From the NCBI GenBank assembly GCA_018434685.1, contig JAHDOV010000006.1:62001-126000 (forward strand): a stretch of 64,000 nucleotides of DNA. Reading direction: 5' to 3'. This document shows positions 38,677 to 40,332 of this stretch, piece by piece. The position numbers and the translations under genes are program-made. The DNA is from Deltaproteobacteria bacterium (GTDB taxonomy: Bacteria > Desulfobacterota > Desulfomonilia > UBA1062). Below the pieces are notes generated by a model. It did no database searches. It was not told where the DNA came from and saw only the letters and a program-made list of their open reading frames with translations. Position 1 is the first letter of the stretch. Every line of letters begins with the position of its first letter.

Positions 38677-39147
38677 TCAGTCTTCTTTTCCGTAACCGGA
38701 CTGTTTCCCGGTCATGCCCTCTACGGTGACCCTGATCACCGCTGTTCTCTCGAGATCCGCATCGGGCAGGGCAAGACTCCGGTCAGAATAGTGGTTCATG
38801 ATAATTTCCAGTGCCTCGCGCTTTTCATCATGGTCTTCAACGAGCTCTGCCGTACCGAACCCGATAACGCTGCGGTATCTCATGCCCCAGCCGCATGCCC
38901 TCTCCGCCGGGACAATCCCGGTATCTGTATCGAGCTCGAGACACACCCGGGGATTCTTTCTCAAGCTGTCGATCTTATGGCCTTGCCCTGCGCTGTGGAA
39001 ATAGAATGTCCGGTCTCTGTAGCCGAAGCACAACGGCACAATATAGGGCCGATCTCCATCCGAGACGGCAAGCCTGCAGACGTCGCATGCCAGGATGATC
39101 TGCTCGATAGCGGATTCGCCGGTAATTTCCCTGTCGCTTCTCCTCAT
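38677..39147 (-). CDS. Pyridoxamine 5'-phosphate oxidase-like flavoprotein (NimA-like)
   Basis: From ATG 39147 the product has 156 residues with the split-barrel landmarks 'CDVCRLAVSDGDRPYIVPL', 'DRTFYFHSAGQGHKIDSL' and 'NPRVCLELDTDTG', plus 'YRSVIGFGTAELVED'. This is the PNPOx-like family that includes nitroimidazole-resistance (Nim) reductases; such proteins bind FMN and reduce nitro compounds or act as general flavoproteins. GGAGAGACCC precedes the ATG and overrules the longer frame from 39240. Confidence 0.85.
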   Translation of the reverse strand: MRRSDREITGESAIEQIILACDVCRLAVSDGDRPYIVPLCFGYRDRTFYFHSAGQGHKIDSLRKNPRVCLELDTDTGIVPAERACGWGMRYRSVIGFGTAELVEDHDEKREALEIIMNHYSDRSLALPDADLERTAVIRVTVEGMTGKQSGYGKED

Positions 39148-39264
39148 GGGTCTCTCCAGTTCAGTTTCTGTCTCTGCAGAATTCAGAAAGCATAGACGCC
39201 TGCCAGCAGACAGTAAATAAGTATATTCTGTGTAAGGCACACGATAATCCGGATACGTGGTGTG

Positions 39265-39591
39265 TTAGAGCTCCCGGACAGTCACCTGGGCACCGCTGAT
39301 TGTGATGTCCCTGGCAAGGAGGAATCGCTCCAGCCCGATCCTGACGACCCCGCCTGGTTTGTCGGGCACCACATCCTTCGATGCCCAGATGGTGATGTCG
39401 TCAACAGGGTACTCTCTGTAGAACCCGGGAGTATTCTCGTAAGGCTTCCCCATGCGGACCGCAGGGGTGCGGCTCATGATCTGCCGCGAGGCGCATCACC
39501 CACCGCTCGAGTGGTGGCTCTCCATGTAGATGGTCATCACGCCGCCCTTTTTCAGAATGTATGCTCTCGCTTCGGCGCTGATCGTAAACAT
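39265..39591 (-). CDS. Candidate selenoprotein, CC/Se motif type (in-frame UGA)
   Basis: The frame runs from ATG 39591 to a stop at 39265 with one in-frame TGA at 39498-39496 (codon 32). Read through as selenocysteine the product has 108 residues: 'MFTISAEARAYILKKGGVMT', then 'HHSSGG-U-CASRQ', then 'PYENTPGFYREYPVDDITIW' and 'GGVVRIGLERFLL'. AGGAGG lies 9 bases before ATG. The U-C pair replaces the CC/CU pair that I recall in a family of small (seleno)proteins of anaerobes. Eight bases after UGA begins a 5-bp hairpin (GCGGC/GCCGC, 39487-39483 with 39473-39469), a possible SECIS. A nonsense-truncated pseudogene is the alternative. No selA/B/C/D genes are visible here. Confidence 0.65.
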
Positions 39592-39885
39592 ATGGCTAAT
39601 CCTCCTGTGACAAACCGGTTCTCTTCCGGGACGCTGCCTGCAACCCCTTCTTTCGTTGCAGGGACGGAATGCCGGTTGGCACCCTGCACCGACCTGTCCG
39701 CCATTACTGTAGGGGAAGGATAGATATTTCTCAAGACCTGATCCGGAATATTCTTAGTGCCCATACCCTCTCTCCTGTGAGCAGGGCACCAACCTCGAGG
39801 CAGCTGAGGGAACAATGACCGGCCGGCACCGGCGGTGAAGAGATCTTCCCAAGGCCTGTTGTGGCGACAGCACCGTGTACCAGGG
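39592..39885. other. Gap between NiSOD and selenoprotein genes
   Basis: An 8-bp perfect inverted repeat CCTGCAAC (39637-39644) / GTTGCAGG (39655-39662) lies about 46 bases upstream of the selenoprotein start, in its leader. No T-run follows, so a regulatory hairpin is more likely than a terminator. Open frames on this strand and the opposite one are spurious. Confidence 0.4.
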
Positions 39886-40332
39886 CTATTTTCTGGGGAA
39901 ATACAGCAGCTTGAATTCTTCGACAAGCTCTCTGAGTTTAGCCGTATTGGTCAGGTCCGTGGACTGCTTGCACCTCATGCTGTAGATCAGCATCTGGTGG
40001 AGGACCGAGATCGTCCTGCAATATTCCCCGGTGTCAGGCTTGATCCGCTGGGTCATGAAATACTGTGCCACGACTTCCTGGATCAGGCCGGCGTGATGTT
40101 CCTTGTTCTCCACCCACCTGACGAGCTGGTTATAGTTCACCGGGGTGCTCTTCCCAAGCTCGGTGATCTGGTTCATGGATTTCTCGATCGTGGTGATGTT
40201 TTCGAGCAGCATGCCTACGCGGAGTTCATCGTCATAAATCCCGCAGGGGATCTCGCAGTGTGCAGCGGCAGAAGATGTCAGTCCCAAAAACAGCAAAAGG
40301 CCTGTAAAAGCCTGGACGGATCGCTTTTTCAT
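39886..40332 (-). CDS. sodN: Nickel superoxide dismutase with signal peptide
   Basis: The 148-residue precursor begins with a Sec signal (MKKRSVQAFTGLLLFLGLTS) ending 'SAAA' before His25. The mature protein starts HCEIPCGIYDD, the nickel hook of NiSOD (His1, Cys2, Cys6), and has the four-helix-bundle pattern 'NKEHHAGLIQEVVAQYFMTQ'. The mature length (124) matches the family. NiSOD dismutates superoxide; classical forms need a SodX protease to free the N-terminal His. Here an AxA signal peptidase site does so directly, and no sodX gene is visible. AAAGGAGGAAGCCC precedes the ATG. The enzyme would be periplasmic. Confidence 0.9.
   Translation of the reverse strand: MKKRSVQAFTGLLLFLGLTSSAAAHCEIPCGIYDDELRVGMLLENITTIEKSMNQITELGKSTPVNYNQLVRWVENKEHHAGLIQEVVAQYFMTQRIKPDTGEYCRTISVLHQMLIYSMRCKQSTDLTNTAKLRELVEEFKLLYFPRK

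Follow-up and report, generated by a model that had tools for sequence, protein, structure and literature searches.

A UGA codon very probably read as selenocysteine beside a cysteine in a CC/Se motif family gene with a predicted HesB-type fold

Does the single TGA interrupting an otherwise open frame in the genome of a Deltaproteobacteria bacterium end a short gene, or is it translated as selenocysteine (Sec)? Ordinary annotation would cut the protein at residue 31 or call its second half alone. The frame lies on the reverse strand of the window, i.e., the whole stretch of 64,000 nucleotides analyzed here. The initial annotation interpreted its product as a selenoprotein of the CC/Se family and pointed out a GCGGC/GCCGC hairpin after the UGA.

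Re-reading of the sequence bore out the frame, the coordinates and the ribosome-binding site as first described (Table 1). The frame opens with the ATG at 39591-39589 (-), separated from AGGAGG by a spacer of 9 nt (ATTAGCCAT), and closes with the TAA at 39267-39265; its only in-frame TGA is followed directly by UGC (Cys33), resulting in the motif G-G-U-C, which continues as U-C-A-S. Cys33 represents the sole cysteine of the window protein, the C-terminus of which reads VTVREL. Likewise, no ribosome-binding site was observed upstream of the ATG at 39477, and the hairpin does exist, with GCGGC starting 8 nt past the UGA and pairing with GCCGC.

By itself, such a frame is weak evidence and within chance, since a mechanical scan of the 64-kb window yielded 23 frames that are led by an SD sequence, span 100 codons or more and contain a single TGA. 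Local stability of the RNA after the UGA was not unusual in comparison to shuffled sequences (z of -0.3 and -0.9). Ten other TGA-interrupted frames of the window were tested, and none of them (0/10) featured a domain spanning the TGA. The locus gains its significance from the family match, from the retention of the UGA among homologues, from covariation within the stem and from the presence of the Sec machinery, and not from the frame alone. As judged from these features of the sequence, UGA codon 32 is almost certainly decoded as Sec.

Table 1. Features of the putative selenoprotein gene and their positions in the window
Feature	Position	Strand	Remarks
CC/Se motif family gene, very probably encoding a selenoprotein	39265..39591	(-)	108 residues, predicted Sec at 32, Cys at 33
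UGA codon 32, very probably read as selenocysteine	39496..39498	(-)	relatives: TGA in same column, others C
AGGAGG ribosome-binding site	39601..39606	(-)	
SECIS candidate CCCCUGCG-GUC-CGCA(U)GGGG	39447..39467	(-)	loop GGU, 36 nt UGA to loop; encodes TPAVRMG
Hairpin GCGGC/GCCGC of the initial annotation	39469..39487	(-)	between UGA and SECIS candidate

Family membership and predicted fold

Within the NCBIfam scan, the read-through protein matched NF041239, "CC/Se motif family (seleno)protein", at 51 bits (curated cut-off, 40 bits), which bears out the family assignment of the initial annotation. The match covers profile positions 3-90 of 91 and protein residues 2-100. No Pfam model matched the read-through protein, a PDB sequence search with the window protein gave nothing significant, and querying genome contigs as well as viral and plasmid sequences with the single protein returned no match. 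Relatives surfaced when a two-row alignment was used as query instead of the window protein alone. Family and alignment searches through genomes of the phylum provided relatives sharing 14 to 58% identity, and all 28 aligned relatives match NF041239. Homologues carry Sec or Cys at the column in question and are conserved on both flanks, which had been named beforehand as support for the Sec reading. In comparison to the nearest relative (58% identical; L035, from a Syntrophaceae genome of UBA1062), changes are in excess at third codon positions on both sides of the UGA (17/29 before and 36/75 after it). The closeness of this relative suggests that the window originates from the same group.

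Accordingly, the window gene adds a member to an already catalogued family. A 2026 review lists the CC/Se family with one Sec and a CxxU motif, first predicted in Moorella (PMC13188914, Table 1). The window protein has in common with that entry the family profile above cut-off, the small size and Sec or Cys at the motif, but differs from it in the adjacent U-C pair and in the existence of a UU sister group.

In order to obtain a structural prediction, an AlphaFold2 model was built from the 28-row alignment, showing a mean pLDDT of 90 and an average of 66 for the motif loop (residues 31-40). The top nine Foldseek matches were mostly IscA, SufA and HesB-like chains, the best of them with a modest E-value of 0.013. 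VIA-align placed IscA (1r94) at Z 8.3 over 83 residues, and nearly all matches listed at Z of at least 4.6 were named members of the IscA/HesB fold. Furthermore, profile comparison with HesB-like selenoproteins resulted in an E-value of 1.4e-5 and a probability of 80%, with Sec32 aligning to their Sec. In the joint alignment, Sec32 corresponds to Cys35 of IscA and is located in the loop between two strands; in the translated protein, Sec32 would thus take the Cys35 position of a HesB-type fold. The window protein is predicted to adopt the IscA/SufA (HesB-type) fold, the match being good, not overwhelming. This prediction connects the CC/Se family, so far uncharacterised, with the IscA/HesB fold.

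The HesB-like selenoproteins proper (TIGR01911, motif UxGP) have the same predicted fold and Sec at the same place. In contrast to them, the window protein features neither GP after Sec nor a C-terminal cysteine cluster of the kind in which they end, e.g., CGGCTSC, and TIGR01911 was not reported for it at E-values up to 1 in the NCBIfam scan. As a side observation, L094:1423-1758, from a related genome, encodes a HesB-like paralogue with Trp (TGG) in place of the Sec codon TGA of its relatives.

These similarities raise the possibility that the protein functions as an A-type Fe-S cluster carrier, Sec taking the place of the first of the cluster cysteines; such a reading concerns the function of the protein and not the decoding of the UGA. 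IscA and SufA feature three conserved cluster cysteines, one central and two C-terminal. Compared to E. coli IscA and SufA, the predicted fold and the position of Sec32 in the Cys35 loop are in common, at an identity of 6-9%; the window protein lacks the C-terminal cluster cysteines, and Cys33 is the only cysteine available. A function as Fe-S carrier is unlikely on these grounds, and the protein was not filed as such because the defining C-terminal cysteines are missing.

Since the protein has no other cysteine, its active site is probably formed by the vicinal Sec-Cys pair. This pair may work as a selenenylsulfide redox centre or as a soft-metal ligand, and we regard the chances for and against such a redox or soft-metal role, deduced from sequence, as evenly balanced.

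The motif pair across relatives

Among relatives, the motif pair occurs as UC, UU, CU or CC at the same two positions. Besides the window gene, UC was found in L003/L035, L055-L058 and L038. UU, encoded by tandem TGATGA, is present in at least eight Desulfobulbia genes (L042, L043, L048, L049, L050, L051, L052 and L053). CU (TGC TGA, Cys-Sec) was detected on a metagenome-assembled contig (L054:348-653) in a gene with an apparently frameshifted N-terminus, and CC, with no TGA, in L008. Another branch (family f17; L002, L005, L006, L007, L010, L030, L031, L032 and L034) mostly carries one U without a neighbouring cysteine, a cysteine being located close to the C-terminus instead, and has a different stem-loop. 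Moreover, the motif of one remote NF041239 match (L009) reads GSIG, with Sec and Cys both absent, and SelA is encoded in the genome of this match.

In the phylogenetic tree, which has long branches and a UU clade without internal resolution, the UU and CU genes nest inside a UC grade. This placement suggests that a single substitution (TGC/TGT to TGA) probably converted Sec-Cys into Sec-Sec. The TGATGA genes, each with one stem-loop, would imply adjacent Sec-Sec. It is likely that these genes form a HesB-fold subfamily that uses a vicinal chalcogen pair as active site, in which single-base changes convert Sec-Cys, Sec-Sec and Cys-Sec into one another, and that in Desulfobulbia both consecutive UGAs, served by one short stem-loop, are decoded as Sec to give an adjacent Sec-Sec pair. 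Since the same small protein occurs naturally with UC, UU, CU and CC, the chemistry of these pairs can be compared.

SelL is a thioredoxin-fold protein. SelL-type diselenide proteins (Shchedrina 2007, cited in PMC2398784) carry the motif UxxU; likeness to them is limited to the UU sister group, where two selenols are likewise predicted and may form a diselenide, but in that group the two U are adjacent and a HesB-like fold is predicted. UU does not occur as a motif among the 119 families and subfamilies of the 2026 inventory (PMC13188914), an earlier mention elsewhere being possible, and a literature search on consecutive UGA codons or Sec residues retrieved nothing relevant. The UU sister group is possibly the part of these findings that is new.

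The probable insertion signal and the selenocysteine machinery

A 7-bp stem downstream of the UGA (39467-39447) was identified as SECIS candidate: in 15/15 distinct sequences, none of the seven pairs tested was disrupted, and compensatory changes were observed at one pair (U-A/G-C/G-U) and at another (G-C/A-U/G-U). Its covariation exceeded that of 500/500 shuffles and of every slid control. With the protein sequence and the local codon usage kept as they are, 0.08-1.3% of the synonymous versions of a gene would form the stem, a chance of 0.0008-0.013 per gene. The loop, GGU, does not vary and starts with G, as expected for a SECIS element, and the putative SECIS loop of SelD of the same genome likewise contains AGGU. 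In bacteria, the distance between UGA and loop usually ranges from 16 to 37 nt. Searches against Rfam gave chance-level matches only.

The stem underlies TPAVRMGKP, the best-conserved peptide of the window subfamily, which is missing in the other CC/Se branch; as it overlies the RNA signal, its conservation may be partly RNA-driven.

The GCGGC/GCCGC hairpin was rejected as main SECIS, since 80% of its cells are paired in six long-spacer UC relatives, no compensatory change was observed, and a deletion of 12 nt removes it from the UU relatives. In members with a long spacer, it may serve as an accessory stem. Insertion is probably directed by the stem-loop at 39467-39447, the next one downstream, which is conserved in all 15 distinct relatives, and in this respect the initial annotation was probably wrong.

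The genome from which the window originates encodes SelA (440 bits), SelB (345 bits), SelD, the gene of which likewise contains an in-frame TGA, and a tRNA-Sec (SelC) with the anticodon TCA; all four components that were called for in support of the Sec reading are thus present. The same genome contains three further HesB-like matches, each of them interrupted by one TGA in frame. Among genomes carrying the CC/Se family, SelA was detected in 18 of the 20 checked. A SelA match was absent in G644 (90% complete) and G541 (single contig), both with a tRNA-Sec above cut-off. The UC gene of G541 (L055) has an intact stem, but no SelA match accompanies it, which weighs against the Sec reading.

In the proposed mechanism, SelB with Sec-tRNA-Sec would bind the stem-loop within the coding region at its GGU loop, UGA codon 32 would be decoded as Sec beside Cys33, and the 108-residue CC/Se protein would result. 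The wider subfamily suggests that a single bacterial SECIS element can act on two UGA codons in a row, a point of interest for the way in which SelB deals with back-to-back recoding.

Reading of the UGA as another amino acid, i.e., as Trp or by near-cognate suppression, is very improbable: the HesB-like paralogue with Trp at the equivalent Sec position speaks for it, but within the CC/Se family the alternative at the pair is Cys (L008, L054), apart from the remote L009, and the genome has the full Sec system together with a covarying stem after the UGA. Slightly less probable still, and refuted in practice, is a pseudogene or a short gene ending at the TGA with a leftover frame downstream, since, common as TGA-interrupted frames are in the mechanical scan, different families of the phylum, distant genomes included, conserve the sequence after the TGA and retain the TGA itself, changes are mostly at third positions and the RNA stem covaries. 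Insertion of Sec, as initially proposed, is supported by the family match, the exchange of Sec and Cys in homologues and the presence of SelA, SelB, SelC and SelD.

Gene neighbourhood

No conserved operon was found among 23 neighbourhoods, and the context provided no functional hint. UC genes have no adjacent gene in common with the window, and the UU genes of Desulfobulbia have a divergent kinase-like gene in common. Directly downstream of the window gene (38677-39207, (-)), a pyridoxamine 5'-phosphate oxidase-like protein (PF12900) is encoded, which distantly matches models of the Nim nitroimidazole reductase, well below their cut-offs. Directly upstream (39886-40332, (-)), a gene for nickel superoxide dismutase (PF09055) is located, encoding a signal peptide followed by HCEIPCGIY.
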